A stretch of DNA of 64,000 bases from positions 6,404,812 to 6,468,811 of the forward strand of contig RPFO01000213.1 in assembly GCA_009746045.1 (NCBI GenBank). The letters run 5' to 3'. The position numbers were made by a program, and so were the translations under genes. Shown piece by piece: positions 4,731 to 47,495 of the stretch (its first letter is position 1; the number at the start of each line of letters is the position of its first letter). Under the pieces are notes generated by a model that had not been told where the DNA came from, made no database searches, and saw only the letters and a list, made by a program, of their open reading frames with translations. Source of the DNA: Mesostigma viride (lineage: Eukaryota; Streptophyta; Mesostigmatophyceae; Mesostigmatales; Mesostigmataceae).

Positions 4731-5274
4731 TGTTACGTCGCGTAACAATTCGTTGTAGTTACGGACGTAAATTAGGTCCTTTGCCTCGGTTGTTCCTAGG
4801 TTTACGTGTAGTTCCAACTAGGACACTATTGTCCTCGTAACAGTACTGTGGTAAATTGGGTGCTTTGGGGCGCCGCGCCGCGTACTTTATTAGTGGTCCT
4901 TATCCTTTGGTAGAATGTAGTGGACCAGCGTGTATCTGTAGGCGAGGGCCAGGTCGGCCCGAGCATGTTTGACCGTTGGTGACCATTTATGCACGTTCTA
5001 CCCCTCGTGTGGTCACTCGGCGTGTGCTAAATGAATTAACACATATAGGCTTGGGTCACGGCAGTGTAGTGTGTTTCCTTCCTCTATTCCTGGAATAAAC
5101 GGGTTCGGGTAAATGGTTGTATGGCGTATTATAGCAACACATACGTGAATGCATTGAGATCAGCTCCGTCTCGTTCGTCTTTCGCTAGGGGTTTGAGTAG
5201 AGGAGGCCTGACCAATTTAGGTAGCATCAGGCCCAGTAGAGGTAGAGGTGGAGGTAGAAGTTTAGGACGTAACA
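4731..5274 (+). repeat. Ty3-1 5' LTR
   Basis: 544 bp, inverted ends tgttacgtc/gacgtaaca, preceded by target duplication gtcca at 4726-4730. The last 154 bp encode the N-terminus of the RG-rich ORF. Confidence 0.95.
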
Positions 5275-5423: not shown

Positions 5424-6103
5424 TGCTGCCCGGTTCGGGACACGATCTGCCTAGATGCTAGACCTGCTCGTAGCGGATAAACCCTTTCGTAGATAGCTCC
5501 TTCGCCTTGTTTTCCTGCGCAAGTTTCCTTCCTGTCGTAGATAGAGGATAATTGTTTGGTTCGGCAACAGTGCGACGACTAGCGTCGTAGTAGACTACAC
5601 CTCTTTTTCTTCACGAGTGCTGCTGTTTTATTAGACGGCCGCACCCGCAGAGATACGGGTCGCTGCTTTTAGGACGAGCGCTGGACTATTCGGTCGCTGA
5701 TTTTAGGACGAGCGCTGGACTATTCCGCCCTCATTCTGCTTTCGGTGCTCCAGATCGTCCAGATAAGTCGCCTACTCCTTCTTCTAGCGTGACGTCACAA
5801 GACCCACCAGGTGCGTTACCATGATCCAGCGTCGTGCTTTTACTGCTCCTTCCCATTCGTCCAGTGACAATAGCTTAGCCAAATATTACGTAGTTATTAC
5901 CCCTCAATGGTCAGCCATTTTCCTTTCTTGGTCAGATGCTAGGAAGATAGTGCAAAACCGTACATATAACGTAGTTAGGTATAAGAAATTTGTTACCTTT
6001 GAAGAAGCTCAGCAATTCCTTATAGACCATAGTAGTTATTATAAATAGTGACGGACCTAATTGCCCAAGTGGCAAAAAGGTTCCGTCACTATTTATAATA
6101 ACT

Positions 6104-6301
6104 AAAACGTCGTAGTGTGGGGGCCGATATCTATCGTACCGCTGATGCCTACTGCAGTACCGAATCTCGCCTTAACGATATTCCAACCAGGCATATTTTC
6201 CCTTCTGGCACTTTCGTTTGGCCTTCTGGTATCAATTCCTTCCGGTATTCGGAAATACCCGTGTCACCACGGGGATTCGAACCCCCGACTTACGAGGTCT
6301 T
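6104..6301 (-). ncRNA. Candidate Pol III unit of PTR-1 (tRNA 3'-half-like start)
   Basis: Read on the minus strand the unit starts directly after the palindrome with aagacctcgtaagtc, then a T-arm-like gggggttcgaatcccc with the B-box core ggttcgaatcc, then tggtgaca, resembling a tRNA from the anticodon loop to the acceptor end. It ends in gtttt, a minimal Pol III terminator, exactly at the other palindrome. A near-identical second copy is 6516-6713. No 5' tRNA half or A box is evident. Transcription is inferred, not shown. Confidence 0.4.
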
Positions 6302-6515
6302 AGTTATTATAAATAGTGACGGAACCTTTTTGCCACTTGGGCAATTAGGTCCGTCACTATTTATCCGGCGAAAACCACTCGCCGGTATCAATTCCGCGCC
6401 ACGATCACGTGAACTTAACGCGGAATTGATACCGGCGAGTGGTTTTCGCCGGATAAATAGTGACGGACCTAATTGCCCAAGTGGCAAAAAGGTTCCGTCA
6501 CTATTTATAATAACT
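6302..6515. repeat. 214-bp hierarchical palindrome of PTR-1
   Basis: Two 97-bp arms identical as reverse complements around a 20-bp centre (6399-6418). Each arm contains a smaller inverted repeat (tgacgga...tccgtca). The 70-bp terminal copies at 6034-6103 and 6887-6956 correspond to one arm with its own hairpin, as if the apex had been deleted. Confidence 0.9.
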
Positions 6516-6713
6516 AAAACGTCGTAGTGTGGGGGCCGATATCTATCGTACCGCTGATGCCTACTGCAGTACCGAATCTCGCCTTAACCATATTCCAACC
6601 AGGCATATTTTCCCTTCTGGCACTTTCGTTTGGCCTTCTGGTATCAATTCCTTCCGGTATTCGGAAATACCCGTGTCACCACGGGGATTCGAACCCCCGA
6701 CTTACGAGGTCTT
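6516..6713 (-). ncRNA. Second copy of the PTR-1 unit
   Basis: 198 bp nearly identical to 6104-6301, same orientation. It is followed at 6721-6886 by a reverse-complement copy of itself that lacks the tRNA-like segment; the joint agtatta (6714-6720) begins like the palindrome. Confidence 0.4.
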
Positions 6714-7321
6714 AGTATTATGGTGACACGGGTATTTCCGAATACCGGAAGGAATTGATACCAGAAGGCCAAACGAAAGTGCCAGAAGGGAAAATATGCC
6801 TGGTTGGAATATCGTTAAGGCGAGATTCGGTACTGCAGTAGGCATCAGCGGTACGATAGATATCGGCCCCCACACTACGACGTTTTAGTTATTATGAATA
6901 GTGGCGGACCTAATTGCCCAAGTGGCAAAAAGGTTCCGTCACTATTTATAATAACTATAGTGTATCAGATTTAGGCCTACATGTACGTTCTATTCCTCAT
7001 GGTCGTCCTCCTGTAGAAGCTCTAGATTTTGCTACTCCTCCTTCTCCCCCTAAACGGGCTGCATCCTCAACTAGCTCAGATACTCCTCTCACCTTAGAGT
7101 TTGGTTCCCTATCCATTACTGTTGTTAAAAAGGATTGGTTTTACTTGTTTTCCTTTCTTAGGACATTAAAAGTTTTTCCTTTTTCCTTCCTTGCTTTAAA
7201 TTAGGGCTTTGTCCTTTTCCTTTATTGCTTTCATTTAGATCCCTATTCCTTTACTTAATTAAAGATGGATCCAGTGGGTGGAGATATGTCGCCTATACCT
7301 ACCAATACTACTAATAATAAC

Positions 7322-22107: not shown

Positions 22108-22735
22108 AGTTAATATTGCCTGGCAAGCAATATTATTCTACTAAGCTACTTGGCTTGTAGAGATTCTACTTCCGGTTACTACAATCCAGAAACGGGTTCA
22201 TTCTGATGAGTATTGCTCGAGATATGAGCAAGATACTGTTCTACTACATTCTACTTGGATTCGGTGATTCTACGGTGGTTCTTCAAGTGACGCGTGGCAT
22301 AGGACGTCTTGTCACAGTGTACGATAGGACATTTAGTCTCCGACACTGCGGTCTATTCAATGCTATTGATTAGACGTAACAAATAGTGACAGGACTTGTG
22401 CGACAGGACACTGATGTGACTATTTATGGATAACGAGTCGAGATCTGCTGGTCCAGAGTGAAGGACAGCAATATTGTGAGATGATCTGTCCTATCAGTCA
22501 TCTGGATGTGACTGCGTCACAATTAGTATATAACGAGCAGGACGCTGCCACTTGGTAGCACCACTTTCCCTGCACCTGTGTCCTCGCACCTTTGGCGACG
22601 GTTCTCACGTGCCTCGTGCGTTCTGTGCTGGTAGCCATAACCAGCAACGTAAACCTATTGATTAATATAACTACTTCCTCTGTAGATATTAATCAGTGCA
22701 GGCTGAACCACAGTTCAGCCACAGTTTTGTTAACT
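22108..22735 (+). repeat. copia A 5' LTR
   Basis: 628 bp, agttaatattg...ttttgttaact. The next bases cgaattaca, similar to cgtattaca after the copia B LTR, are not the tgg expected of a tRNA 3'-end primer site; an internal (half-tRNA) primer is possible. Confidence 0.9.
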
Positions 22736-22816
22736 CGAATTACAATCGATTTCGTAATCTGCTGATTACGGCATTGATTTCTGGTGTCGGCAAATTTTAC
22801 TGTGTTTTTCCATTAT

Positions 22817-23402
22817 ATGGGAAACACGCGTGAATATCGTGAGCCATCTCCAGAGCGTGCATCGGCTCCGTCGTCTTCAGGCTTTAATTTCAACGTTCAA
22901 CGGACGGCATCGACTGCCGGCTGCGCTGCATTCGCGTGTTGCTCAACCTTCGCTGTCTCAAGCGCTCGTCAGCAGGCCGCCAGTTTCTAACAATCTGCAT
23001 CAGTTCGTCGACAACCTTACTCAAGATTTGGAAATCCTGTCGGAAAATTCCCATATTTTCCGAAGGCTTGCAGCGTCGGGATCAGGCGAACAAGCTCAAG
23101 TAATTTCGGCGCTTTGCACCTACGGCTTGGGTGTTCTGGCGTTGGCGACAGCGTGGTCTGGAATTTCGGCGACTCTTCCGGCTGTCGCAGTTCCGATTAG
23201 CAACAACGGGTGGGCGTCGTCAGTCGACGGTATCATAAACGTTGCTGCTTCGATCCAGCGGCAATCAAACGCTGAGGAGCCTGTCAAATTTCCTACCATC
23301 CAGGGTATTGGAGGAATTCTTTCGTCCCAGCCTTTCTTGGCAATTACAAATGGAAGCACAAATATTAATCCCACTCGTTTATTGCATATAAAACCTTCCT
23401 AG
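22817..23402 (+). pseudogene. copia A ORF upstream of gag (frameshifted)
   Basis: Starts MGNTREYREPSPERAS and passes by a frameshift into a frame with LHQFVDNLTQDLEILSEN, a hydrophobic Ala/Gly stretch (LCTYGLGVLALATAWSG) and a stop at 23402. It lies between LTR and gag, where copia elements normally have only leader sequence. Copia B has an ORF in the same place (40309-41019) of similar length and polar, helix-rich N-terminus but no clear sequence identity. Product unknown. Confidence 0.45.
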
Positions 23403-24147
23403 CGCCATAGCTATGTGGCTGGCTAGGTGGCAAGGCATTGGATACATTTTAGGGAGCAGAGACATGCAATTTACATGGAAAAGCAGCCACTTTGCGCAAG
23501 GCAAAGTTAATGCAATATCCGCCGTCAGATTCGACTCAGGTGGCGGCTGGACAATGCTAGACATCGGATGCTACATCATGCATCATACATGTGGGCGTGG
23601 CCCAAGCAAGGTACTTCCTAGGTATTTTTAGGTTCTTTCCCTCGAGCTCAACCTACAGATCATTTATGCATCAACGCATGAGTATGTTTGGGCCTGGCGC
23701 GGCGCCGACGGTCAGAATAAATTGCACCGCGGCCTAAGCACAAATTCGAAACATTACGAATTGTTCAGAAATTTCTACGCAAAGTATCTCAGCCAGATTT
23801 ACCAAAAGCCAGGACTATAAACGGACAATATAAAAGATATTCCGGCCATAGGAAAAATTTGTACTGAGTACCTGGACAAAAGTATCGAACCCTTGACAGA
23901 GCCAGGAGAAAATAACGAGGGGCTTCCTGATTTATATCCGGGTATTGTGCAGCAGATTTTGGATAACGTATTGCAGCATCCGCGCGACGATATGCGGCTG
24001 GATTAAATTTTCTGTTATAATTAACAGTGAATTAATTCAGGAAAAAAAAAATTTTCTTGGTTCCAGAGCTTAAGGGATTAATTTATTAATTCCCCAGCTG
24101 TATTCTTTCTTCGGCATTGGCAGTTGTCACCGGCATTCGCAGCGACC
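23403..24147 (+). other. copia A leader between upstream ORF and gag
   Basis: 745 bp with only short frames; ends in a polyA-rich and pyrimidine-rich stretch just before gag. Nothing recognised. Confidence 0.4.
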
Positions 24148-25208
24148 ATGCAGGGTTTGGAAGACGGCGAGATACGCGACGAACGGGTACTGCGGGGTCA
24201 GAATTTTAATCAGAATTTTAATCGTCCAGCAGCAGCAGCAGCAGCAGCAGAGCAGCCCCGCAGAGCCAAGGCCCAGGAGGGCTTTGCTATTCTTAACCAA
24301 CTTCCCAGTCTCAAGGAGCACTGGACTGTTAAGGATAAGGATATCACTATTAGGCACCTTAAGGGATATAAGGGCTTGTATAATGGTAACAATACTCTGC
24401 AGGTGCTGTGTATGTCTCAGTACCTTCTTAAGTGTCCCAAGAGGGTGCAAAAGTATGTAAATGACAAGTTTGAGGATGGAGATTCCTGGGAGGTTTTTAT
24501 AGCTGAGTTTGAGGTGTTCCTAGATGATAAGAGGGCTAGTGATGGCTCCTTTTGGAAGAAGGAGTACATTGATTTCAAGGCTGAGGGCCTGATTCTGCAG
24601 GCATTTGAGGATTTTCAGGAGCTGAGGCACAATTGTGCTGGCAAGGGGTATGTAGTGTCAGATGAGATTGCCATGGATGATTTGCTAGGTAGCCTGGGAT
24701 TGGATGAGGTCACCTTGTATAACCTGCAGGTGCACATGCGTACATGCACCACCTGGGCGCTATGGTGGCCAAGATCAAGGATTGTTTCAGGGGCAAGTAT
24801 GTGGGAGGCAAGAAGGAGGCAGACAAGGCCAGGGAGAAGCAGAAGGAGAAGGAAAAGGTGGAGGGGGCAGCCGCAGCAGGGGTAAGTGTGCCCAAGGTCA
24901 AGGGCAACCAATGGGGGGGGCAGCCCTCCAACGGTTATGGCCCACCAAGGTCAGGGCCTTCCAAGCGTGGGGGCTTCCAGGCCAATGGCTTCAGTGGTTT
25001 CAAGCGTCGTGGAGGTCCTTCCCAGGAGCAGCCAGCGGCTCAGCGTCCCAGATTTGATTTTAACAGGGTGGGGTCCCAGCGGGGACCACCTGGGGTTGGG
25101 ACGCCTCGTATCACATGTTATTTCTGCCAACAGCAGGGCCACGTCCGTAAGGACTGCCCTCGCTGGCGTAGGCAAAGGGGCCAAGGGGGGCATAACAACC
25201 CAACCTGA
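24148..25208 (+). pseudogene. gag: copia A Gag
   Basis: Starts MQGLEDGEIRDERV, has a seven-Ala run (CAG/GCA repeats) near 24225-24250, then a helical capsid-like region (HWTVKDKDITIRHLKGYKG, WEVFIAEFEVFLDDKR) alignable with copia B Gag. One frameshift near 24735 separates it from the Lys-rich C-terminus and the CCHC knuckle CYFCQQQGHVRKDC near 25108. It ends at TGA 25206-25208, after which the same frame stays open into pol. Confidence 0.8.
25206..25208 (+). promoter_or_regulatory. Candidate readthrough stop between gag and pol (copia A)
   Basis: acc TGA cag: a lone TGA followed by C, with pol open in the same frame on the other side. Copia B has the same arrangement at 42302-42304. Confidence 0.5.
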
Positions 25209-27939
25209 CAGGCTCAGCCTTCCCTGGGCTTGCTAGGGTCCGCCAGGGAGGGGGCTAAGAGTGACCCCCCCATTACTCTGGATGGCACTGAAGAAGTTGA
25301 TTTGCTCCCTGCACGGGTTGAGAGTCTCCCACTTAAGGTTGAGAGTCTCCCTGCACAGGTTGAGAGTGCATCCATGGAGGAAGAACACAATGGGGTAGTG
25401 ACTGGGTCTTCCCACGTCACCATGGTGAAAGCAGTTACCACAAGGCAACAATATTCCCACAAGGCTCTTGGAGGTAGTTTGCGTACTCCTTCAATGTTGG
25501 AGGGTGGAAGTCCTGTCTTAGGGCAGGAGGCTCCTCTAGAGGAGGAGGGTGAGGCTGATGGCCTGAATGATGCAATGGGGAGCATGGTTGTAAGGGAGCG
25601 TGCTGTTCCAAGCACCTCACCTGTATTTAATAAAATGTCTCTTGTGTCCAACATTGCATTGAGATTGCATCACATGTTTGGTCATGCTGCCCAGGCACTC
25701 CAGTTTGCAAGGAGGCTGGGAGGGACATCTTTGTTTAATGCAGTAAAACAGGTTGCTGAGGCTTGTTCCTGTAGGCTGGTTGCTCCCAAGCCTAAGAAGT
25801 CTCATGTCAGACAACCTGTGTTGCAGCCTGGATATGTTCAATGTGATATCCAAGAAATCAGGAAACTGATTTTGTTGGTTGGTGTTGACAGATATACCAA
25901 GTACAAGGTGCTGGAGCTGTTGCAAGACAAGTCTAAGCCATGTTTGGTGGCTGGGCTCCAGGCTATCAGATCCAGAATGAAACCAGTGATCCAGCTGCAG
26001 TGTGATTTAGAATTTGAGTGCTGCATGGGGAATGAAGACCTCCCTGAGTTATTTGTTGTACACAGGGAGTCCCATGGCAGTCAAGGCGTGGTGGAGAGGA
26101 CAATCAGAGAACTCAAGACTATTCTGCTGACGGAGAAGAAGACTCCAAGATTGGTTCCAGCTATTATCAAGACGGCCTGGTTAAGGTCAGTTGAGGACAG
26201 ATTGAATGTCAGGGCATCCATGTATGTTGGAGACTCGAGGTCCCTGTGACTCCATTATCATTGCATCTTCGGGAGCTCCCTACTGAGGTTGAGCAAGCCT
26301 GGAAAGATAGCCTTATGTTCAAATTTGCCAAGTTGAGGCAGAAAGACAAGGGCTGGAGTGTTCTGAAACCTGTTGTTGGCCAGAGGGTAATTGTGTGGAA
26401 AGAGCCCAAGCTTGCAGGCAAGCGTGGTAGCTGGCACCCTGGAGTAGTGACCAGGGTGGAACTAGCTGGGCACAAGTGCTGGGTGAAGATGGAGGATCCT
26501 CCCCAGAATGTGCACCGTCTGTCGTGGTCATATGTACGTCTAAGGGGTGCTGAAGCAGAGGCAGTAGCTCCTGATGTGACAACCTTGCCAGTTGATCATG
26601 ACGTCATCCCTGATCATCACGTTCCGGCTGGAAGTAATCCCCAGGTAAGTCCTGGCCAGACCCCTGGACCGGTTAACTTTCCAGATTTAGAGCAGGCAGA
26701 TGTGGTCCCCTCTAGCCTCACTAAGCATAGAGGTGTGGGCCTGAAAGATGTGGTGCTGGCTATGCAAAAAGCCAAGCAAAAGCCTCGGGTGTCCAAGCTC
26801 AGCCAGTTGGGGGAGTCCGAGTGCACTGCACTAGAAGTAGATACCAATGCAGAGGTCTCCATCATGGGATCTCAGCATACAGGGCAGCGGCAGATTGGCG
26901 AGTCTAGCTGTTCCTGGGTGTCTGACTTTAGTGGCAGGGTTCATATGAAAGTGGTAGGAGAAATCATCTTGCCATTTATGGGTGTAGATGTTTCCTTCCT
27001 AGTGCTAGAAGATTACGATGGCCCTATCATTTTGGGTCAGAATTTTCTTTGCACCCCTGGAGTTGTGGTTGTATCTCATAGCCTTATTCGTAAGGGTTGG
27101 GGTAGCATTCCACTGACTAACTTCAGGGCCCTGAATCTTAATTTTTTCTCTGTGAAAGCGATCAAGAATGTGCAGTGGCCTGAGGATCAGATTCCTGTGG
27201 CTTCCAGTCTTGTGATGCCAGCTGCTCTTCACCCTAGCAGTATTGGTATTACCATTAAAGAGATCACTGGCTGCTCATTCTCCTCTTAGCTATGATCAGC
27301 TTGTCCAGGAAATGAGTTCTCCGAGGCCTGGAGGCTAGCATTTGCCAAGGCCCTAGAGGAGTGGTTGCAGTTTGACTGCTGTCAGCCTGTGAATGAAGTT
27401 CCCCCATACAGTACACGGTTGAAGCTCAGATTCGTCATCAAGCGGAAGGAGGTAGAGGGGGTGTCTATTCCCCATGTGCGTCCAGTTCTGAATGAATACC
27501 GTGGTACTGGGGATCTTCTGGGCGAGGAGTTGTATACACCTGGGATGCTACATGATACATGGCGTATTTTATTGTGCCTGTATGTCGGTATGCTGAACCA
27601 GGGTGCTGATATGTCTTCAGTTCTGCTAGATTTCAAGAGAGCATTTCTGAAGGGTGATCCCAGTGTGGCTCAGCAGGTGTGGCATTGTGAAACTCCATTT
27701 CATGTGCCAGTTCCTGTAGCCTGGCAGGCAGAGCTCCAGTCTAACTACCTGCTGATTCTGAAGGGTCTAGAAGGTCTCAGGTCCAGTCCCATCATTTGGA
27801 GACTCACCTTGGAAGACTTCTTGACTAAGCACTGTGGGTTGAAGGTGTCATCTGTGGACCCATGTTTATTGCTGGGTAGGTGGCATGATTTACCTGTGTA
27901 TGCTAGCCTGCATGGTGATGACTTGCACTTGATTGCTCC

Positions 27940-28659
27940 AGTTATATACAACGATTCCTTACGGAATCGACACTAAGCGCTTAGTGTCGATTCCGTAAGG
28001 AACCGTTGTATATAACTAAAACTTTTGCTTGCGCCGGCAAGGCTAAGGCCGATACTAGTCGGGTCATCGAATTGGCTATTCGATTATCGAAGTTGCCTAT
28101 TCGACCATCGAACTTTCCTATTCGATTATCGAATTTTCCTTATTCGATTGTCGAAATTTCCTATTCGACAGGGGGTCAGAGGCCAGCGGCCTATCATACT
28201 CGGTGCCCAGCGAGCCACCGAACTAGGCCTAGTCGATTATAGCGAGACATCGCGTGGAAATTAGCGATTTCGGGGACTTAGCCGATTTTCGGAGCGACGT
28301 CGAACAACACAGATGATTAGCCGGTTGAGCACATCATATCAGTCAAATAGCTAGCGCTAGTACTCCGCCTAGCCAGCGGAGAGCACTTGCCTTATTCGAT
28401 TAACATATTAGGCCGAACGATTAGCGTCCGCAACGTTATTCGCATTACTAGGCGAAAAATCCACCCCCGGAACGATCCTAACGGGATTCGAACCCGGGAT
28501 GCCGGCGTGTCGCAACAGTCTTAGTAATTTGATGACCCGACTAGTATCGGCCTTAGCCTTGCCGGCGCAAGCAAAAGTTTTAGTTATATACAACGATTCC
28601 TTACGGAATCGACACTAAGCGCTTAGTGTCGATTCCGTAAGGAATCGTTGTATATAACT
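27940..28659. mobile_element. Palindromic-terminal-repeat element PTR-2
   Basis: 720 bp, target duplication gctcc at 27935-27939 and 28660-28664. Terminal direct repeats are 78-bp palindromes (27940-28017, one mismatch; 28582-28659, perfect). Next to them are about 51-58 bp inverted arms (28018-28068 and 28531-28581). The interior has four to five ~22-bp repeats with ttcgattatcgaa cores (28072-28170). No protein. Confidence 0.85.
28018..28522 (-). ncRNA. Candidate Pol III unit of PTR-2
   Basis: On the minus strand it begins aagactgttgcgaca, a tRNA-half with a long variable arm, then a T-arm cccgggttcgaatcccg with a B box (28483-28495), and ends gtttt at 28022-28018 next to the palindrome. 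The stretch agtaattt (28523-28530) joins it to an inverted copy of its own far end. Confidence 0.4.
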
Positions 28660-29535
28660 GCTCCCACTAAGTGGTTGAGTCAGTTTGTGCCCATCATTAA
28701 TGATGCATTTCCTTTGGGAAAAGAATTGTGGCAGAAGCCTGGAGAGGCTGTCACGTTCTGTGGAATGAAGGCTACATTGGTTCAGGAGGGGAGTCAGTGG
28801 CTGATTAAGCTGCAGGCGGGCAATGACTACAAGAGTACAATTCTTCAATCTGTTCCAGAGGTCATGACGTCATCCATTGCACCTGAGCTGAAAGGCAAGT
28901 TGGCCTGGTATGGCAGCATTTGTGGGCCTGACATGATGGTCCATCGCAGATCCCCTGATGATGTGCTAATCCTGGAGGAGCCTTCCCAGATTATTGCACA
29001 TGTTAACAAGTCTCCTGGTATTACTTTAGCTGGGATTGATTTGTCTTTGCCATTTTCCTTGGATATCTATGTTGATAGCTCCATGGATAGCAGGCAAGTT
29101 TCTAAGGTCAGAGGCAGATCAGCTGGCTTGTTTGTGCTTCAGCAACATAGGCCTAGTCTTGTGGCCTGGTACAGTCGTCTTCAAAGAAGGGTTGCTGTGA
29201 GTTCAGATGTCTCTGAGTGCAGAGCCATTTGTGAAGGGATTCAGTCCAGTTTGTACATCAAGGAGCTGTTGCTAGCTATGGCTTCAGTGACTCCTCATAC
29301 TCTTCAGCTGGAAACCTTGATCCTTTCAGATAACATGGGCATGGTCCAGTTTGTGCACAAGCAGTTGGCCAGAAGCAGAGATCTGGATTATCTCCTGTTG
29401 AAGGAGTTGGCAGGTCTGGTGGATATTCAACATCTTCCAGGTTCTGAGAATCCTGCTGATGCCTTGACCAAGTTGCCTCACAAGTCTGCTGAGCAATATA
29501 AGCTTCTTTACAAGCTGATGAGCTCCTCTGTGTGA

Positions 29536-30214
29536 GTTGAGCAATTCCAGTTGGAGCTTTGAGTTTGGTGGCTGTTGGGTGAGAAGAGCTAACATTGAGC
29601 TGGGCTCTGTTATGCTGAGAGCTGTGATGCTCTGAGGGCAGTAATGCTCTGTGTACATATGTGTATAATACTGTATTCTATATAATGCTCAGTCATGATG
29701 TTGGTTGGGGGTTTGTCCTCAGTTTGAGGTTTGTCTCAACCAAAGGGATTTTATAGGGCAGGGTTCGATTCCCTGGGGCTGCTTAGGCGGATTTTCCCGG
29801 ATTGGCTGGCCCATCAACCTTGCTGGTGAGGTGGCGACAGGTCCCCCTAGTTTTGTCCCAGACAGAGGAAGGTAGTTTGTCATGTGCTTAATATATTTTG
29901 TGATGTGCTCTTTCTCAGTCCATGGTGGGCGCCAGTTCTGATAACTATCAATGTCTACCTGATAAGGTCTTGTGGGTAACTTGTGGGGTTCCAATCAGGA
30001 GCCATTATGGTGATGATTCCATTTTGGTCATTATTCTGGTTAGCCACAAGCTGCTATTCCAAACACTTGGCTTTCTACTTCCAGTGGATAGGGAATTCAT
30101 TGTAATTCGTCATGGCTGAGATGTGTTGTGATCTGGTGCTTGATTAATCCCGAGCAGAGACTACAGAGAGCTGGGAGGGATGTCAAGTGCTATGCATGTT
30201 GTTTCTATATATGT
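29536..30214 (+). other. copia A 3' untranslated region
   Basis: Non-coding. It contains the tRNA-like T-arm hairpin at 29759-29775 and leads to the LINE-b insertion. It resumes at 31541 and ends in a purine tract (31610-31629). A PPT plus LTR-start phrase is duplicated just upstream (about 31558-31590). Confidence 0.6.
29759..29775 (+). ncRNA. tRNA-like T-arm hairpin in copia A 3' UTR
   Basis: caggg ttcgatt ccctg: perfect 5-bp stem and canonical 7-nt T loop, containing the Pol III B box ggttcgattcc. Preceded by ttatagggc. Copia B has the same at 46211-46227 with an A-U pair changed to G-U. Confidence 0.55.
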
Positions 30215-31527
30215 TAAAAATATAATTACTTACAACAGAGTGAAATCACTCAAACCAAAGCAAACGCCCAGCTATAAACCTATATACAGAGCCATGTCAA
30301 AGCTCTATACTACGATAAGACCAATGGAAACGCCTAACGGGAGGAACCTAATAGCCCTGCTGCACCGCAAAATCAGCCCGCGTACGGCGGAGCATGATGT
30401 CAGCCATGGCCCGAGTCAGCGCCACCGACAAGCGCTGACGCCAATATGACGTCCAGGTCCGCGCCGACCATGGGGCCCGCTGGCCCTCCAGGTCCAGCCG
30501 GTCCTCCCGGAGCCGGCAACACTCCTTGAAGAAGGCGGAGGTCAGGGGCCCCATGGCCCCAAACTCCTCCAGGACAAAGGGCACCACACGATGGTGCCCG
30601 ACGTCGCCGTAGGCCAGGAGCTTGGACCGCTCCGCCCGGTCCGCCGTGTAACCTGCCGTGAGGGAGGCCCCAGCCACGTGGCTAAGAGCCAAGGGCCGCG
30701 CCACCGAAACGTCAATAAGCAGATGCCGGCCACCCCCCTCAAAGTCCAGCACCACGATGTCAGGCCGGTGGTTGGGGGAATAGAAGGCAGCGCCATCCGC
30801 ATCCTCGGACCGGATGTTCGCGTGGGGGAAAACCGACCGAATCATGGCGAGCACCACCGTCAGGAGGACAGTGTGCAAATACAAATACCAATTCTGATTC
30901 TGTTGGCCCCCCATGCAGGCAAGGTAGTGAGTCCCCGTGGGATCCAGCGGCTGCCCACAGCTACCACAAGGCCGCCCGGCCGGAACAAGAGGCTGCGGGG
31001 CAAATAGCTGGTGCCGGAGCGCCACCGAGTAGTGGCTGGGAGCCAAGGCGAATGGGGGGGCCATGGGAAGAGCACGAAGGTACGCCGAGCCCACACTCCG
31101 CAAGGAAAGCGAGAACAGCCACGCACGTCCCTGGGCGTTGAGGTCCGCGAAAAGAGCAATCCAATCAGCCGTGTGCAGAATACCCGCGTAGGTTTTCTGG
31201 TGTTTATCGATGACGCGAGCAGGGAATGCGGCGGGAGATTGAACGGAGGCGACCGAGGGAGTGCCGCGAGGGAGGTGGCGCTGTACCGCCTGAGCGGCAC
31301 GGACGGGAGAACAGGCCTGCTGGATCTCAGCATAGGCCTCCTGGATGGCGGTGACGAAGGGCAAAGGGCTGCTGGGGTCCAGGAGGTCAGGCGCTGCCGT
31401 AGCCAAAAGGGGCAGGAGCCGGCAGCTTTCCGCCCACGACTGAGCGACGGAGCCCAAAAATGCTGCTGGGGCCAGCCGGGCGGCACGAGTCAGACCGCAG
31501 CCACCCATCCGTGCAGGCAGGGAGGCA
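30215..31527 (-). mobile_element. 5'-truncated LINE (LINE-b)
   Basis: 13-bp target duplication tttctatatatgt at 30202-30214 and 31528-31540. The minus strand contains a 386-codon frame and a short AT-rich 3' end. A shorter fragment of the same family is at 56853-57247. Confidence 0.85.
30348..31508 (-). pseudogene. C-terminal region of LINE ORF2 with zinc finger and endonuclease-like motif
   Basis: 386 codons, open but lacking the RT. The N-terminal half has the ARAWLFSLSLRSVGSAYL-type region that follows RT in some LINEs. Around 30980-30910 is a C-x2-C...H-x3-C site (CGSCG...GTHYLAC). Around 30780-30690, RPDIVVLDFEGGGRHLLIDV followed by a Lys resembles a PD-(D/E)xK restriction-like nuclease. 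The tail ERSKLLAYGD...CCRLREDRLDLEGQ is also found, diverged, in LINE-c. Truncated at the 5' end by the insertion process. The endonuclease reading is by motif only. Confidence 0.65.
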
Positions 31528-31629
31528 TTTCTATATATGTGTTGCCAAGCCTAACAGCTCTAAAAGAAAGAAAGGGCTGGAGTTAATATGGCTGTTACGT
31601 ACAAGCTCTAAAAGAGAAGAAAGGGCTGG

Positions 31630-32270
31630 AGTTAATATTGCCTGGCAAGCAATATTATTCTACTAAGCTACTTGGCTTGTAGAGATTCTACTTCCGGTTA
31701 CTACAATCCAGAAACGGGTTCATTCTGATGAGTATTGCTCGAGATATGAGCAAGATACTGTTCTACTACATTCTACTTGGATTCGGTGATTCTACGGTGG
31801 TTCTTCAAGTGACGCGTGGCATACGACGTCTTGTCACAGTGTACGATAGGACATTTAGTCTCCGACACTGCGGTCTATTCAATGCTATTGATTAGACGTA
31901 ACAAATAGTGACAGGACTTGTGCGACAGGACACTGATGTGACTATTTATGGATAACGAGTCGAGATCTGCTGGTCCAGAGTGAAGGACAGCAATATTGTG
32001 AGATGATCTGTCCTATCAGTCATCTGGATGTGACTGCATCACAATTAGTATATAACGAGCAGGACGCTGCCACTTGGTAGCACCACTTTCCCTGCACCTG
32101 TGTCCTCGCACCTCTGGCGACGGCCGTGAGAACCGGTTCTCACGTGCCTCGTGCGTTCTGTGCTGGTAGCCATAACCAGCAACGTAAACCTATTGATTAA
32201 TATAACTACTTCCTCTGTAGATATTAATCAGTGCAGGCTGAACCACAGTTCAGCCACAGTTTTGTTAACT
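31630..32270 (+). repeat. copia A 3' LTR (first of two)
   Basis: 641 bp; same as the 5' LTR plus a 13-bp insertion that makes a small gagaaccggttctc palindrome near 32130. A purine tract precedes it. Confidence 0.9.
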
Positions 32271-39668: not shown

Positions 39669-40284
39669 AGTTAACGTAAAGGATTTACGTTAGATGGATA
39701 GAGATTGTTACGCTCTTTCCAACGGCACCTTGAACGCCTCATTTGGTTAAGGAACGTAAAAGTTATGACGTTTCCTAGGCTGTGCCGACAGTACCCGGCG
39801 CGCCACTGTGGGCGCGTACGGACACAGGATGTACAAGTGTCACTTTGATAGTCCGCAGGACGTTGACAGGACTTGTACAGGACTTGATGGTCAATTGATA
39901 GGTAGGCGCACTGTAGCGCGCCAGGACCTATGAGACAATTGATGCTGACTAGAGTACGGATAGGTCCACAGGACTAGCCGTATGGACAATTGATAGATCT
40001 GCGCGCCAAAGGCGTGCCAGAGTCTGTGTAATCAATTGATTGACAGTTCAGCTGTGACAGTGCAGCTGAATACTTGGACGCGTCCCTAGCAAGCTATATG
40101 AGTGACTTGGTCACACCGGGACGCTAGTTCTTGCGTGCACGTTCTCTTGGCACTGCGACCCTGTCGTCTGTGCTGCGTGCAGTCTTGGAAGTGACGTGAC
40201 TTACGTCTGTGTTTCCTGTTATTAATAAAGGCAACTTCCTGCAAGAACCATGGCGGAATTCGTGGCATTCTTACCCTCACAACT
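39669..40284 (+). repeat. copia B 5' LTR
   Basis: 616 bp, agttaacgtaaagg...ttaccctcacaact. Followed by cgtattaca, comparable to the bases after the copia A LTR. Confidence 0.95.
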
Positions 40285-40308
40285 CGTATTACACGCTCTG
40301 TCAAAAAG

Positions 40309-41019
40309 ATGCCAAATTCGGAAGAATTTCGGATTCCGGACGATGAGGAAATAGCCGCTCCGCCGGCTGGTTCTTCGTCAAGACCGACGGTGCCGTCGTG
40401 GCAGCAATTGCTCGACGAAGTAACGGTCTCGCTCGACGAGCTTCATCGTCAGCAGCGTGCAGCTCACGCATTGCTCGGGGATAACCCCGAGGACCCCGAT
40501 TTGCCAGCACTGGTGCCGGCAATCCGCAACCTGTTGGACCAGATTCGAAACATTTTATCGACATTTACGGTCCAGGTGCGGGGAGGTTTGCGGTCGGTGA
40601 CCGAAGTCACGACTGCCATTGAGGAGTTGGACAACGTCCTCTCTTCACTCACCGGTTACCAGAGAAACCTGCAAAACTGGGCATCGCTACGCACGGGGGG
40701 CGCGCCGGCGGTGTCGACAAATTTGTTTCAGGATCTCGCGCTGTTATCGCTGCTCACTCGCGGCGTACGCAGTCGCGAGCGCCAGGTTTTAATTAACCTG
40801 GTGGCATTTCTCGCCTCTGTGCGAGAGTGGATTCCCGCGGGGTGGGAATTATTGACGATCTTTACACATCCTCTGCGCCTCGTCGCGCGTCGGCGCGTCG
40901 CAACTTACGCGGCGGGGAGCACGCCGGTTTTAATTCATACCGGTGCAGGTCCGGAGCTGGATATGGAGGATCGTGAGTTCGTATACACGTACTGCGACTT
41001 CAGGGGCCTTGACTACTAG
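40309..41019 (+). CDS. copia B ORF upstream of gag, unknown function
   Basis: 236 codons, intact, MPNSEEFRIPDDEE. N-terminal 30 residues acidic and Pro/Ser-rich, then amphipathic helices rich in Leu, Arg and Gln (WQQLLDEVTVSLDELHRQQR, AIRNLLDQIRNILSTF) and a hydrophobic stretch (LLSLLTRGVRSRERQVLINL). No zinc knuckle, protease or known domain. It sits between the primer site and gag in a different frame from gag (169 bp gap). An analogous ORF in copia A supports it being an element gene. Possible roles (second structural protein, regulator) are speculation. Confidence 0.6.
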   Translation: MPNSEEFRIPDDEEIAAPPAGSSSRPTVPSWQQLLDEVTVSLDELHRQQRAAHALLGDNPEDPDLPALVPAIRNLLDQIRNILSTFTVQVRGGLRSVTEVTTAIEELDNVLSSLTGYQRNLQNWASLRTGGAPAVSTNLFQDLALLSLLTRGVRSRERQVLINLVAFLASVREWIPAGWELLTIFTHPLRLVARRRVATYAAGSTPVLIHTGAGPELDMEDREFVYTYCDFRGLDY

Positions 41020-41188
41020 TCGGCCTAATTTTCTTCTGCAGTACTCGTCGACATTTTTTTGTCGAATTTCAGCGGCAATTCGCGGGGGCGGCAGCGACAC
41101 CGGCGCAGGCGGCAGTGGCGACACAAAAATTTTGTACATATTTTCTGCTGCTTTGTTAAGGTGTTCTTTGAATAGCTGGTAGTGCAGG

Positions 41189-42304
41189 ATGGCTGAGGGA
41201 CGCCGTAGCAAGGGTCCAGCCAGTGGGAATAATAATGGGGGTGCTGGTAGTGGAACCGCTCACGTAGATGACGTGGGGCTTACCGGAGAGATTACCAACC
41301 TTCCTCACAATAATAATAATGCACAAGCTATTCATGGCTTTGATCTTACCACACAGGGTCTTTTAATTGTCAATCAGTTGCAGCCTGTAACCTCAGACTC
41401 CAAGCCTAAGCAGGCTGAAGAGTTTGTGGAGGGATTGGAAGGGTTCCCTAGCTTGTACGGTGGTACAAATTACTATCAAATCTGGATAGGCAGTAGCACT
41501 TTTGGCAAGTGTACTGACCAGATTAAGGACCTAACCAGGGAGTGCAAAAAGGCCAATAAGGCCTGGGCACTGTACGTGGCTGAGCTGAAGGAGCTGCTGG
41601 AGGACCAACGAAAGAAGGTCGGCATCCATTGGCAGGACAAGTACCAAGGGTGGGAGGTCAAGGGGGACCTGATCCAGAACTTTCTCAACTATTGTAAGAT
41701 GGTTGAGGAGGGCAGGGCTCACGGCTTTAATGTCGCTGATAACATAGCCCTAACCAACTGGCTCAAGGTTTCTGGGCTGGATAAGGCGACACGTGGCTCC
41801 TTAAAAGTCATGTGTGCCCCACACTCTACCCTGAAGGCCTACAAGGTCATCATTAAACAAGCTCTCGAGGCAGAGGAGCTGTTTGAGGGTGGAGTGCCAG
41901 CAGTGAAGGCTACCCAGGCAGGCGGGCGTACCCAGGGTGGCTCCAAGACGTCTGAGGCTGACCGAAGCCAAGGAGGGCGTAGGGGCAACCATCACAAGCG
42001 CAAGGGAGATCATTCACCTGATTCTGACAGGAGGTCACACTCCAAGTCGGTGTTCAGGCGGGTGGGTGGTCAGCCCAAGCAGGGCAACGCGTCTGACAAT
42101 GGGGGCAGTGGCCAGGGCAAGTCCAAGATACAATGCTACCTGTGCAAGGGGTGGGGGCACATCAAGAAGGAGTGTCCCAGCTTCAAGAAGTCCCAGGGCC
42201 AGGGCAGCAACAAGAATAACAACAACAACAAGAAGAACAACAACAAGTCCCAGGCAGGCCAGCCTTCAAAGGGCAGTCAGCAAGAAGACAACAAGGAGCA
42301 GTGA
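41189..42304 (+). CDS. gag: copia B Gag
   Basis: 371 codons from ATG in tgcaggATGgct. The capsid-like helical region (residues 60-230) aligns with copia A Gag; a basic region rich in Lys, Gly and Ser follows, then one CCHC knuckle CYLCKGWGHIKKEC near residue 316, and an Asn/Lys-rich tail. Structural protein binding element RNA. It ends in CAG TGA CTG; the next 47 codons in the same frame are open and lead into pol. Confidence 0.9.
   Translation: MAEGRRSKGPASGNNNGGAGSGTAHVDDVGLTGEITNLPHNNNNAQAIHGFDLTTQGLLIVNQLQPVTSDSKPKQAEEFVEGLEGFPSLYGGTNYYQIWIGSSTFGKCTDQIKDLTRECKKANKAWALYVAELKELLEDQRKKVGIHWQDKYQGWEVKGDLIQNFLNYCKMVEEGRAHGFNVADNIALTNWLKVSGLDKATRGSLKVMCAPHSTLKAYKVIIKQALEAEELFEGGVPAVKATQAGGRTQGGSKTSEADRSQGGRRGNHHKRKGDHSPDSDRRSHSKSVFRRVGGQPKQGNASDNGGSGQGKSKIQCYLCKGWGHIKKECPSFKKSQGQGSNKNNNNNKKNNNKSQAGQPSKGSQQEDNKEQ
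42302..42304 (+). promoter_or_regulatory. Candidate readthrough stop between gag and pol (copia B)
   Basis: CAG TGA CTG with pol in the same frame. A UGA followed by C is a leaky context in known readthrough systems. Copia A has ACC TGA CAG at the homologous point. Confidence 0.5.
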
Positions 42305-45300
42305 CTGTCTGAGGCAACCCCTACACACCTTAATTCACCCAAGGGGGAGGCCAGGTGCTCCAATGCAGATTTTATATCTGGGCAACAAGAGGGTGATCTC
42401 CAGGTTCAGTGTGGCCCCAGGTCACCTGGAGAGGTACAGGTTCCTATGAAGACGTCCTTGACAGCTGATGCAGCTGTAAGAATGTCTGACCCTATGCATC
42501 CTCGTGCTGGGCACGAGGGTGGACCTCTCATTTTGAGAGAAACCAATGTACAACCACAGAGGGGTGTGAAGGCCTCTGGTGGTATGCATGTGGTCCCTGC
42601 TGGCGGTCCAGGTGTTGGGCATGAGCAGGGTGACTCAGGCTCTGAGTCAGAACAGGATGGAAGTCAGCATGGTGATGCTGGACAACCTGACAGCACAGTC
42701 CTGACTGTGCCAGGGACTGCTTCCTCTGTGTACCAGGAGTTGGGTGCCCGAATCCACAACATGTTTGGGCATGCCACTTCTCTGTCAAACAACTTTGCCT
42801 TCCGTATGGGCAGGGCACCCCTTCTTAAGGCGTGTCAGCAAGCTGCCTCACGGTGTAAGTGCCAGTTGTCCTCCAACAAGCCCAGGAAATCACATGCCAA
42901 AGCTCTACCTCAGAGCATTGGTGATCTGCAGTGTGATATCCAACACATCAGGGGCATGCAACTGTTGGTGTGCGTGGACAGGTACACGAAATACAAGGTG
43001 CTGGAGCATTTACCTTCTATGAAGAACAGGTACTTGCTGGCTGCCCTGCAGAATGTAAGAGCCAAGTTTCCTACCACAAGGATCCAGGTGGACATGCAGT
43101 TTCAGCATCTCAAGGGTGATCCTACCCTTCCTGAGTTGCTGGTTACACCTAGGGAGGCTCATGGGCAGCAGGGTGCTATCGAGAGGGCAATCCAGGAGGT
43201 CAAGAAATTGATCATCTCTGAAGACTGGGTACCCTTGTCTGCACCTGCACTTGTCAGGAGTGCATGGCTGAGGAACGTGGAGCAGCAGCTGAACAGCAGG
43301 GTTAACTTCTACTATGATGGAGTTGCTGTCAGCCCAATGGGTCTATATCATGGCCTGTGCCCACCACATGTGCTGGAGGGCTGGAAACATGCTGCACATG
43401 TCACCTTTGCCAAGCTGAGGGAGAAGGACCGGGGTTGGAAGATGCTGGAGCCACAAGTGGGTCAGAAGGTCCTAGCTTGGAAGGAACCTAGCCTTTATGG
43501 CAAACGTGGTAGCTGGAGTCCTGGGGTGGTTACCCAGGTTGATGAAGCTAGCCACGCATGCTTGGTCAGCATGGAGGACGAACCAAAGCATGTACACCGG
43601 CTGAGTTGGTCATATGTCAAGCCTAACCTGATGAATGAGGGCAGTCAGGCACAAGGCTCACAGGATCTGCAGGATTTTCAGGTCCCAGGTGACATCACTG
43701 ACGCAACGACCACATCTGTTGCAGGGGAATCTGTCAGCCCTGGCCAGGTTGCAGAGGTACTTGTTGAACAGGCTGCAAGGTCAACAGCTGGGGAGTCAAC
43801 TGTCAAGCCCAAGGCACTAACCAAGCCCAGGGGGACAAGTTTGGCTGGATTGATTGGGGCTCTACAAAGGGCCAAGAAGCAGCCCAAGGTAGCCAAGCTC
43901 AGGTGGCATGGCAATCTGGGGCTGGACACTGCCTTAGAGGTAGACACTAATTCTCAGGTTTCCATCATTGGGACCAGGGCTGCAGCAGGGTACAGCATGT
44001 CTGAACCCAGCTATCAGTTTGTGTCTGACTTCAGTGGCGGGGTACACGTGAAGGTACTGGGTGAGGTATTCATTCCTATCCTTGGACAGGACACTGCTTT
44101 TTGTGTCTTGGAGGGCTATCAAGGACCTGCTCTTCTGGGGCAGAATTTCCTATGCCAGGATGGGTAGTGATCACGTCCTCTCTCCTGACTAAGGAAGGGG
44201 CTGGTCAGGTCCCACTGATTAATTTCAGGACCACTCACCTATCACGTGCAGTAACCAGGACGGTTAAGCGTGTGCAAGTGTGCCAGGGGCAGGAGCCCTT
44301 GGTTGATGACCTCATACTGCCAGCTGCTAGTCATCCAAGCAGTTTGGGCATTGGTCCTCACTCACTTGCTGGACACAGCCCTATCAACTACCAAGGCCTG
44401 GTGAAGCTCATGTCCTCTCCCATTATGTGTCCCCAGGTCACACTGGGTCTGATTAAATCTGGGGAGGACTGGATCTCCAAGAAATGCGTGGAACCTGTCA
44501 ATGACCTGCCTCCTGCACGACGTCTACTCAAGCTCAAGTTTGTCATCAAGATGAAGGAGGTGGACGGGGTCAAGGTACCACATGTCAGGCCAGTGCTGAA
44601 TGAGTTCAAGGGTACTGGTGAGTGCACTGCTGAGGAGTTGTATACCCCTGGCATGCTGCATGATACTTGGAGGCTGCTGCTGTGTGTCTTTCTAGGCCTT
44701 CTCAACAAGGGCTTGGACTATGGCTCAGTGGTGATAGACTTCAAGAGGGCATTTCTGGAGGGTGATGCAGATGTGGCACAGGAAAAGTGGGAGGGCAAGA
44801 CGCCTTTCTATGTTAGGGTGCCTGCTGTATGGAAAAGGGACATCCACACGGAGTTCCTTAAAATCCTCAAGGGCCTGGAGGGCCTGAGGTCAAGTCCAAT
44901 AATCTGGAGGGAGACTCTCAACCGTTTCCTGAAGGAGCATTGCAACTTGAAGGTCTCTCCTGTAGACCCCTGTCTGTTTCTGGGGCAATGGGAAGGCCTG
45001 CCAGTGTATGCTTCGCTGCACGGGGATGACCTACATCTGATAGCTCCCACGTCGTGGCTTAAGGAGCTGATCTCCATCATTAAGTCCAAGTTTCCTCTGG
45101 GTAGGGAGCAATGGCAGGTGGAGAATGAGCCTCTGCTGTTTGTGGGCATGGAGGCCACACTGGTGAAGAAGGGGGGAGTGGCGTATGCTGCTGGTGGGGG
45201 GCAATGATTATCAAGAGACCCTCATTAGCAAGCTTCCTCCAACCATCACACAGGCACTGTGTCCCATGGTGAGGGGCATGGTTGCTTGGGTGGCAGGCAT

Positions 45301-45928
45301 TTCCAGGCCAGACCTTATGGTCATAGCCAGGTTGCCTGATGACATGCTGGTGGAGCTAGGGTCTGCCAAGGTGGCTGATCAGGTCAGGGCTTCATCTGGC
45401 ATTCTGTTGTCTGCAGTGGATTTATCACAACCCATTTGCATGGAGCTGTATGTGGATAGCTCAATGGACAGCAGGCAGGTCTCCAAGGTCAGGGGCAGGG
45501 CTGCAGGGCTCTTTGTGCTCAGACAGGAAGGCCTGGGGAGTTTGGTGAGCTGGTTTAGTCGCCTGCACAAACGGGTGGCTGTCAGCAGTGATGTGGCAGA
45601 ATGCAGGGCTATTTGTGAAGGCATTCACACAAGCCTTTATCTGAAGGAGTTGCTTCATCAGATGACTTCTAACACTCCTTGGCCACTTCAGGTTACCACT
45701 CTTCTAAAAACAGACTCCATGGGGATGGTGCAGTTTGTGCACAGGCAGATGGCCAGAAGTAGGGACTTGGATTATCTCCTTCTTAAGGAGTTGTCCTCCT
45801 TGGCCAATATTGAGCATATCCCTGGGGTTGACAATCCTGCTGATGCTTTGACCAAGCTAGTGCAGAAGGCAGCAGTGCAATACAAGGTTCTTCAGTCTCT
45901 GATGGACCCATCTCAGCAAGCTGTCTAA
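42305..45928 (+). pseudogene. pol: copia B Pol: integrase, protease-like, RT, RNaseH (two frameshifts)
   Basis: The N-terminal linker is unstructured. Integrase zinc site HNMFGH...CKC near 42760-42865; core CDIQHI, VDMQFQ, IERAIQEV (D, D, E). C-terminal KRGSWSPGVVTQV and VHRLSWSYVK. At 43943 EVDTNSQVSI with ALLGQNFL near 44130: retropepsin-like with DTN. A one-base loss near 44155 shifts to RT (VIDFKRAFLEG, SLHGDDL at 45016-45033). One extra G in the run near 45175 shifts again to RNaseH (YVDSSMDSRQ, AECRAICEG, KTDSMGM, NPADALT), ending at 45928. RNA-dependent DNA synthesis and integration; with only two point defects it was recently functional. Confidence 0.9.
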
Positions 45929-46878
45929 GCTGGTGCATGGTTATAGGGCATTGGAGAGCAGATTGTGTGGTAGTGTCAGCATTGTGACTGGCATAATACC
46001 TGTATTTTAGTCTGTACTAAGGCTCATGGACCATGGTACACTCACTCTGATTTTAATCAGGATACAGCCAGGTTTTGGCTGGGGTTCATGCTGTTGACTA
46101 CACAAGGTTGACAGGTCCATTACAGACCATGTATTCTATTTTAAAAGAAATGTATATTTGTACATACCTCTCACAATGGTCTGGGAACCTTTATTCTGGG
46201 GTTTATAGGGCGGGGTTCGATTCCCTGGTATTATGTTTCTACAAGCTGGCCTGTTCAGGTGTTTGCCTGTTCAGACTTCCCTAGTTCCCCAGGGCAGGAT
46301 TTAATTGTTGCCTATGTGTTTCATTTTGTCATTTGTTTGCTGTGGCAGTTTACCATCTGGCAAGTAGACGGGCGCCGTAAGACGGGCGCCAATAGACCCC
46401 TGTTGAGAGAATGACAGGCAAACTATTGTAATACGCCTTACTTTGTCAAGTGGTATTTTAATTGTCATGGATTTATTGTACTTATATTGAATATGTACTG
46501 GGTTTTATGGGATTAGTATCTGGGATTAATGTAACTCACCGCCAGAAGGTCATTGTACTGGAGGCTCTACCGAGGTGATGGGATTAATTCCTGGAGAAGA
46601 CCTCATAGAATTAACCTGTATGTATTTAATTTTGTGTGCTTCTAATATCTGGTGGTACTCTGTAATGCCACTTCCATAGGTTTTTATCCATTTCTCATGG
46701 AATGGTTTTCCCTGTGGCAGATCTGTTTCTTTTCCAGTTCCTTAAAAGAAAGGGCTGGGGGAATGGCAATGGCCATTAAAGACATCTGTTCAAGCTTCAA
46801 GCTGGAGTGAAGGACATTTCAAGCTACTTCAAGGGTCCCTGGCAGGGGATGTGATCCCTAAAGAAAAGAAGGGATTGG
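45929..46878 (+). other. copia B 3' untranslated region
   Basis: About 950 bp, non-coding, ending in the purine tract aagaaaagaagggattgg next to the LTR. Confidence 0.6.
46211..46227 (+). ncRNA. tRNA-like T-arm hairpin in copia B 3' UTR
   Basis: cggggttcgattccctg, stem CGGGG/CCCTG with one G-U pair, loop ttcgatt; preceded by tttataggg as in copia A. The surrounding 3' UTR is otherwise much more diverged. Confidence 0.55.
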
Positions 46879-47495
46879 AGTTAACGTAAAGGATTTACGT
46901 TAGATGGATAGAGATTGTTACGCTCTTTCCAACGGCACCTTGAACGCCTCATTTGGTTAAGGAACGTAAAAGTTATGACGTTTCCTAGGCTGTGCCGACA
47001 GTACCCGGCGCGCCACTGTGGGCGCGTACGGACACAGGATGTACAAGTGTCACTTTGATAGTCCGCAGGACGTTGACAGGACTTGTACAGGACTTGATGG
47101 TCAATTGATAGGTAGGCGCACTGTAGCGCGCCAGGACCTATGAGACAATTGATGCTGACTAGTGTACGGATAGGTCCACAGGACTAGCCGTATGGACAAT
47201 TGATAGATCTGCGCGCCAAAGGCGTGCCAGAGTCTGTGTAATCAATTGATTGACAGTTCAGCTGTGACAGTGCAGCTGAATACTTGGACGCGTCCCTAGC
47301 AAGCTATATGAGTGACTTGGTCACACTGGGGCGCTAGTTCTTGCGTGCACGTTCTCTTGGCACTGCGACCCTGTCGTCTGTGCTGCGTGCAGTCTTGGAA
47401 GTGACGTGACTTACGTCTGTGTTTCCTTGTTATTAATAAAGGCAACTTCCTGCAAGAACCATGGCGGAATTCGTGGCATTCTTACCCTCACAACT
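46879..47495 (+). repeat. copia B 3' LTR
   Basis: 617 bp; differs from the 5' LTR by about four changes including one extra t near 47428. Confidence 0.95.

Follow-up and report, generated by a model that had tools for sequence, protein, structure and literature searches.

Palindromic insertions in the window

What kind of mobile DNA carries direct terminal repeats that are themselves palindromes, together with half of a tRNA? This question is raised by three insertions (e1, e2 and e3) in the 64-kb stretch of DNA that was analysed, referred to below as the window. An earlier note had described them from the sequence as having AGTT...AACT ends, near-perfect palindromic terminal repeats of 70/214, 78 and 152 bp, target-site duplications (TSDs) of about 5 bp, B boxes, and interiors ending in GTTTT. 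All of these features were found again. The insertions are genuine, and their coordinates and ends hold up; the repeats are indeed self-complementary. The TSDs read ATAGT/ATAGT, GCTCC/GCTCC and CCTAT/CCTAG, the B box is GGTTCGAATCC in e1 and e2 and GGTTCGAAACC in e3, and the interiors end in GTTTT or GTTTTA. In the following, P denotes the palindrome, I the interior and I' the inverted interior.

Element e1
6029-6033: left TSD, ATAGT (right copy at 6957-6961)
6034-6103: outer palindrome in its 70-bp short form, AGTT...AACT
6104-6301, minus (sense) strand: interior copy 1, running from the tRNA half (6301 side) to TTTT (6104 side)
6273-6283, minus strand: B box GGTTCGAATCC of interior copy 1
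6302-6515: full palindrome, 214 bp
6516-6713, minus strand: interior copy 2, oriented like copy 1
6714-6720: remnant of the deleted central palindrome
6721-6886, plus strand: interior copy 3, inverted, without its first 33 nt
6887-6956: second outer palindrome, 70-bp form

Element e2
27935-27939: left TSD, GCTCC (right copy at 28660-28664), inside a copia-type pol frame
27940-28017: palindrome, 78 bp
28018-28522, minus strand: interior of 505 nt, with its tRNA half on the 28522 side
28484-28494, minus strand: B box GGTTCGAATCC
28526-28581, plus strand: 56-nt remnant of a second, inverted interior, with TTTT end
28582-28659: second palindrome, 78 bp

Element e3
52930-52934: left TSD, CCTAT (right copy CCTAG at 53485-53489)
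52935-53086: perfect palindrome, 152 bp, with A-box-like TAGCTAAAAGG in the right arm
53087-53332, plus strand: interior, start TAGAACC, end GGTTTTA
53114-53124, plus strand: B box GGTTCGAAACC
53333-53484: second palindrome, 152 bp

The earlier note had placed one interior between two palindromes in every insertion. This describes e3, which is a monomer. Element e1, by contrast, is a trimer that has decayed, with the layout P-I'-P-I'-(remnant)-I-P, and e2 is a dimer with a large central deletion; the usual unit is an inverted dimer. The tRNA half of e2 adjoins the deleted central palindrome and not, as had been thought, an end palindrome. The palindromes differ little from perfection. The first copy in e3 is self-complementary at 152 of 152 positions and the second has two mismatched pairs; one e2 copy is perfect and the other has a single mismatched pair. 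An equivalent copy of the 214-bp e1 palindrome, at locus L016, has 8 self-mismatched positions, all within 89 to 126. Element e2 splits its host frame between the residues IAP and TKW, and the paralogous frame of another copia element in the window (B, below) runs uninterrupted through the same site (IAPTSW), which provides a natural empty-site comparison.

ARAGORN, and Rfam at its gathering score, reported nothing in the 64-kb window. A repeat of about 530 bp that starts with TGTTACG is also present in the window in three copies (4731-5258, 50558-51085 and 57812-58338; 88-99% to the reference by block).

Copies, families and the inserting unit

The genome (439.9 Mb, 2,243 contigs) was searched with the pattern AACT-NAGA-N12..40-GGTTCGANNCC, and the reversed pattern served as a control. 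There were 608 forward and 592 reverse matches, or about 1,200, where one dimer is counted twice, against 0 and 1 for the control. Family segments were present at 50 of the 50 loci inspected (30 + 20, with some overlap), and the remainder of the roughly 1,200 could include true tRNA genes. The e1 interior has at least 42 genome matches that are 97-100% identical (40 of 313 first-look candidates scored). The numbers of matches relative to the control, and the excess of TSDs over shuffled flanks given below, exclude chance. Elements e1, e2 and e3 are thus members of a large, recently active set. The proposal that they form a mobile, non-autonomous family, with palindromes as terminal repeats, AGTT...AACT ends, 5-bp TSDs, a tRNA-like 3' half and signals of Pol III type, is supported, and additional copies that carry these features do exist, in a sampling keyed on the interior or on the AACT/B-box pattern. 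A plasmid search gave no match. A scan of viral contigs with the AACT..B-box pattern gave matches that, among those listed, are presumably phage tRNA genes.

Seven families can be told apart by their interiors and palindromes: e1, e2, e3, D, G, H and K. The palindromes had been called unrelated. Those of e2, e3 and D do look so, with only short, non-significant matches to other families, but those of e1, G, H and K are mutually related (e.g., e1 and H are 77% identical over 210 nt). The architecture therefore recurs over about four palindrome lineages. Between families, similarity of the interiors lies chiefly near the B box, with the exception of G and K.

After the removal of 19 duplicate loci, 71 elements from the seven families were segmented. 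There are 41 dimers and three trimers among them, besides one tandem pair; the other 26 have a single recognised interior, and some of these are cut or decayed. Both AGTT/AACT outer ends are present in 52 of the 71 (39 dimers, three trimers and ten one-interior elements). In this comparison of copies, 49 of the 52 are flanked by perfect 5-bp TSDs, one by a 4/5 match and two by none (L030, L040); shuffled flanks gave identical 5-bp pairs in a mean of 1.1 and a maximum of 6 elements.

The dimer has the layout P-I'-P-I-P, in which the central palindrome is shared and lies at the tRNA-half end of both interiors. Of 48 joints, 44 are head-to-head, with the tRNA ends at the shared palindrome or its remnant, 3+1 are tandem and 0 are tail-to-tail. 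In family K, 433 palindromes are bordered by TTTT and AAAA interior ends, and all 50 of those listed start with a K palindrome. Of these 50 places, 40 were sampled; the ten omitted are L086 and L087, two of the three places in contig C100 and six in C206. The sample contained 31 head-to-head joints, 8 tandem joints and 1 unclear joint, L215, which is unclassifiable on one side; its computed label "tail-tail" rests on a tie. Tail-to-tail K joints occur at 18 exact places against the 433 K-type joints. The arrays in C100 and C206 each contain one, and the sample understates such joints because places in these contigs were left out. The motif pair GTTTT..AACTAAAAC was rejected as a test for tail-to-tail joints; it is confounded, since K interiors also begin with AAAAC. 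The C100 array includes a tetramer, P-I'-P-I-P-I'-P-I-P, with the TSD AAGGC (L208, 837-2393) and a tail-to-tail joint, which indicates that inverted dimers can themselves be doubled. At L209 in C206, a long K array has nine interior segments of mixed orientation and extends past the stretch.

In our view, insertion occurs as the dimer, and recombination between copies of P gives rise to the other forms. Single-interior elements with clean TSDs (e.g., L016, L043, L078) could be primary insertions too.

The two arms of a palindrome change together, and this covariation is clearest in K. Among 33 of the 40 sampled K palindromes (the seven that are not 206 nt long were excluded), 53 variants appear in matching form on the two arms and 30 on just one, against a shuffled mean of 12.2 and maximum of 24 for matched variants. 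A first, smaller count gave 17 matched variants in e3 (shuffled mean 4.8, maximum 12) and 4 in H (mean 1.4, maximum 3). No clear signal came from D (1 matched; mean 0.2, maximum 1) or from a small K set (14; mean 5.8, maximum 14), and none from e2 (4; mean 3.3, maximum 7). For e1 (111 matched; mean 98.4), the count was discarded, as its consensus mixed 70- and 214-bp palindromes. The mean distance between the arms of one palindrome is smaller than that to other loci in 6/6 families (own-arm/other-locus: e1 1.2/2.78, e2 1.86/2.21, e3 1.0/3.63, D 0/0.5, H 0.11/0.46, K 1.78/4.48). Similarly, the two interiors of a dimer differ less from each other than from interiors at other loci in 5/5 families, based on 37 dimers or trimers (within-dimer/between-locus: e1 0.76/1.52, e2 6.0/7.5, e3 2.0/4.5, H 0.62/7.0, K 1.5/2.5), but in this comparison of interiors the own partner is strictly nearest in few cases (7/42 e1 arms, 2/16 H arms). 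Separate palindromes of an element resemble each other about as closely as do the arms of a single palindrome, and gene conversion is therefore another possible source of the likeness. Repeated templated copying and gene conversion would both produce the observed likeness of arms and interiors.

In six of the seven reference palindromes the self-complementarity extends through the centre, without an unpaired tip of the snap-back kind; the central bases are ACGT in e1 and H, GCGC in e2 and e3, TGCA in D and GGCC in K. Such loop-less centres are not expected from simple hairpin tips. Head-to-head joining of blunt ends might be their source.

Signals at the palindrome border and a candidate partner

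The palindrome starts with AGTT and finishes with AACT, except that the G reference copy starts with AGTA. The interior follows directly after AACT with the bases AAG, TAG or AAA, and a B box stands at +19 to +29 of the interior in all seven family reference copies. By inspection, the start of the interior reads as a tRNA-Leu-like 3' half. Such a half had been recognised before, with a start at position 37-38; it appears to begin instead with the anticodon, at about position 34 (AACT/AAG.., ACT/TAG..). At its far end, TTTT lies against the next P in six of the seven reference copies (GTTTT in e1, e2, H and K, GTTTTA in e3, ATTTT in D), and the G copy ends in GTTTC.

The tRNA-like region may not be limited to the interior. 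In K, a full-length tRNA model matches across the P/I border, at 1671-1759 of L087, where P ends at 1711; the match scores 23.1 bits, with E 0.0056 for the stretch searched. The mirror copy likewise has such a match. In e1, a mascRNA-type match spans the border, at 1133-1190 of L016, where P ends at 1151; it scores 21.7 bits (E 0.016), and the tRNA model itself reaches 17.4 bits (E 0.19). The tRNA-type matches of K and e1 fall below the Rfam gathering score of 29. A short-stretch search found no tRNA-type border match in H, and the general search found none in e2, e3, D and G. The matches in K, and weakly those in e1, suggest a promoter split between palindrome and interior. The tRNA half, earlier seen as an orphan, may thus receive its 5' strand from the palindrome in K and, weakly, in e1.

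Additional promoter-like features lie within P. An A-box-like motif is found in its right arm in e1 and e3 by pattern, and in H and (with one deviation) K by inspection; the pattern, which was run on e1, e2 and e3 only, had no match in the e2 palindrome. In six of the seven reference copies, a T-run occurs at +25 to +27 of the next P; as P is palindromic, this run complements the A-rich box. The depletion of T-runs in I was dropped as evidence for Pol III, since 1 T-run against 3 A-runs is uninformative. The right half of P folds more stably than shuffled sequences in six of the seven families (z from -2.8 to -6.7; -0.8 in G), so that, by inspection, the full P can form about three hairpins. 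Matches of the palindromes to microRNA families are all below gathering scores and were taken as generic hairpin matches. Judged from these sequence signals, transcription of the elements by Pol III is probable. No polypurine tract was seen by inspection at either end of I in the seven reference copies. Inspection of the border bases shows that TGG, the complement of tRNA CCA ends, starts neither border in any of them.

The window contains two copia-type elements with the same terminal bases.

22108-32270, plus strand: copia-type element A, host of e2; LTRs 22108-22735 and 31630-32270, AGTT...AACT
39669-47495, plus strand: copia element B, a candidate partner with AGTT...AACT LTRs at 39669-40284 and 46879-47495; TSD ccagc

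Because another partial LTR comes after element A, its TSD is not clean. The LTR of B has at least 40 near-identical genome matches (40 scored of 1,540 candidates), and 14 of the 40 scored form seven pairs about 7.2 kb apart. All seven paired elements, one of which sits in a GAAGG simple repeat, have AGTT..AACT ends and a perfect 5-bp TSD. Both the ends and the TSD length are therefore common to copia B and the palindrome elements, and copia-type integration of the latter is likely. Inside the repeats, none of 14 LTR x P comparisons stood clear of dinucleotide shuffles (in the best one, 6 of 100 shuffles scored equally high), and internal similarity was rejected; AAATAGTGAC is common to e1 and copia A. 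A purine tract is kept before the 3' LTR in A and B. The copia reverse transcriptase frame (window 44065-45204) matches Pfam RVT_2 with E 6.1e-7 and 29.7 bits, below the cut-off of 31.6. Its relatives are a JGI protein (98% across 65% of the query) and proteins from Prorocentrum lima (58% across 66%) and Mesostigma viride (62% across 56%).

Other observations on these two elements can be mentioned. Just after the 5' LTRs (window 22736 and 40285), A reads CGAATTAC and B reads CGTATTAC, which could represent an internal primer-binding site (anticodon loop), a type reported for copia and for Helenus of fungi. Element A also holds a 400-aa open frame on the minus strand (window 30348-31550), with no Pfam match.

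A possible copying route, its alternatives and related elements

The best single account, with a probability of about 0.5 when variants of the copying step are included, is that these are non-autonomous elements that are promoted by Pol III, copied by hairpin self-priming and inserted by a copia integrase. RNA of the interior would be made from the tRNA-Leu-like promoter that straddles the P/I border, with the A-box-like part in the right arm of P, the B box in I and the terminator TTTT at the far end of I. It would stop at this TTTT or at the T-run in the next P, and in the second case its 3' end could pair with its own 5' arm. A reverse transcriptase, acting as we infer in copia particles, would extend the self-paired 3' end. 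The palindrome at the 3' end of the cDNA, a copy of the RNA 5' end on the tRNA side, would then fold back and prime the second strand, which would join two interiors head to head through one palindrome. P would act as an LTR-like end for the integrase of the resident copia elements, and this enzyme would insert the P-I'-P-I-P DNA. Monomers, trimers and tetramers would probably follow through recombination between the copies of P, which are direct repeats of each other.

Fold-back priming of the cDNA predicts inverted joints at the tRNA side, and this matches the observation. Nevertheless, fold-back copying is put forward tentatively. Simple self-priming cannot rebuild the longer palindromes, because RNA that starts at about tRNA position 1 would omit their core. 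Self-priming alone accounts neither for this core upstream of the promoter nor for the loop-less centres. A wider claim, which we hold to be possible and still more doubtful than fold-back copying itself, is that the elements follow a third route of retrotransposition. Here, a palindromic-ended Pol III RNA would self-prime reverse transcription and, by fold-back, second-strand synthesis, and a borrowed copia integrase would insert the inverted dimer. Neither the tRNA primer and purine tract of the LTR route nor the nicked target DNA of the SINE/LINE route would be involved. The repeat would be a palindrome since one arm is half of the promoter and the other is its complement, serving as terminator and primer.

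MITE and foldback elements combine long inverted repeats with a fixed TSD, and they are not known to conserve a tRNA half, a B box and a terminator in set positions. The dimers, as near-perfect inverted repeats with fixed 5-bp TSDs, have the repeats and fixed duplications of this class. They might represent a long-inverted-repeat DNA transposon whose transposase cuts at AGTT/AACT, with the tRNA half as a captured passenger that is non-essential or regulatory. The absence of a polypurine tract at both ends of I would suit such a transposon. This explanation is rather unlikely: the ends and TSD length match those of copia B, and a passenger would hardly recur as a tRNA half at a fixed place, with a T-rich end, in four palindrome lineages. 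Very improbable is a rolling-hairpin DNA replication of the parvovirus type, in which palindromic ends prime copying and head-to-head concatemers integrate. Inverted units that share single palindromes and the tetramer with the TSD AAGGC would be natural products of it, but the turn-around is almost always at the tRNA end (44/48 joints, against 0/48 at the other end, which is rare in K with 18 exact places), the Pol III signals are left without explanation, and we know of no replication protein for it. Least credible of all is that SINEs were moved by a LINE through target-primed reverse transcription. The tRNA-related head and the short length are SINE-like, but fixed 5-bp TSDs (49/52), palindromic repeats at both ends and the lack of a 3' tail are not.

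Finally, the elements might be ordinary TRIMp3 elements of the Helenus kind that replicate by standard tRNA priming, with LTRs that are palindromic incidentally and inverted dimers as by-products of recombination. Small size, direct terminal repeats, 5-bp TSDs, a copia partner and Pol III-type boxes all agree with Helenus as presented in the portions of Kojima 2024 (PMC10886601) used here. We consider this quite unlikely, as the purine tract that copia A and B possess is missing beside P at both ends in all seven reference copies, the LTR border splits the tRNA-like region instead of containing it within the LTR, and the dimer is the commonest form (39 of 52 two-ended elements).

Should a copia integrase indeed insert palindromic DNA that is promoted by Pol III, a SINE-like element could exploit LTR retrotransposons without a purine tract and perhaps without a tRNA primer. 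This would also explain the palindromic repeat, one arm being the 5' half of the tRNA promoter and the other its complement with the T-run. The roughly 1,200 matching sites and the young copies make the replication route directly testable.

In the literature searched, mostly outside subscription journals, no element of comparable kind with palindromic LTRs, a split tRNA or inverted dimers was recognised. The resident copia elements A and B resemble the palindrome elements in their AGTT...AACT LTR ends and, for B, the 5-bp TSD; they differ in being protein-coding, in having LTRs of 616-641 bp that are not palindromic throughout and show no internal likeness to P, and in their purine tract. Cassandra TRIMs have, in the part of PMC7215508 drawn on here, a 5S-derived Pol III promoter in their LTRs and tandem arrays with shared LTRs. 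The promoter is thus of 5S and not tRNA origin, and that part describes tandem arrays, not inverted units. The TRIMp3 elements Helenus and Ajax are, in the sections of Kojima 2024 (PMC10886601) on which this comparison draws, short non-autonomous terminal-repeat elements with Pol III-type promoter boxes of small-RNA origin; they have 5-bp TSDs in fungi and plants, and the fungal ones are linked to copia. Helenus has a tRNA-like sequence inside its LTR, and both the primer-binding site and the polypurine tract are present. Words beginning with "palindrom" or "inverted" were not found in the main text of that paper. Terminal repeats, a short interior, the 5-bp TSD and Pol III-type boxes are shared with the present elements. 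These, by contrast, have a palindromic repeat whose border falls within the tRNA-like region, show no purine tract and occur mainly as inverted dimers. They are not classed as Helenus because the purine tract is absent and the tRNA-like part is not contained in the LTR. The earlier statement that no standard class explains them was nevertheless somewhat strong, as Helenus is a related kind. The TRIMp3 group (Helenus, Ajax and Cassandra) is the nearest known kind, and the palindrome elements may work in part like Helenus.
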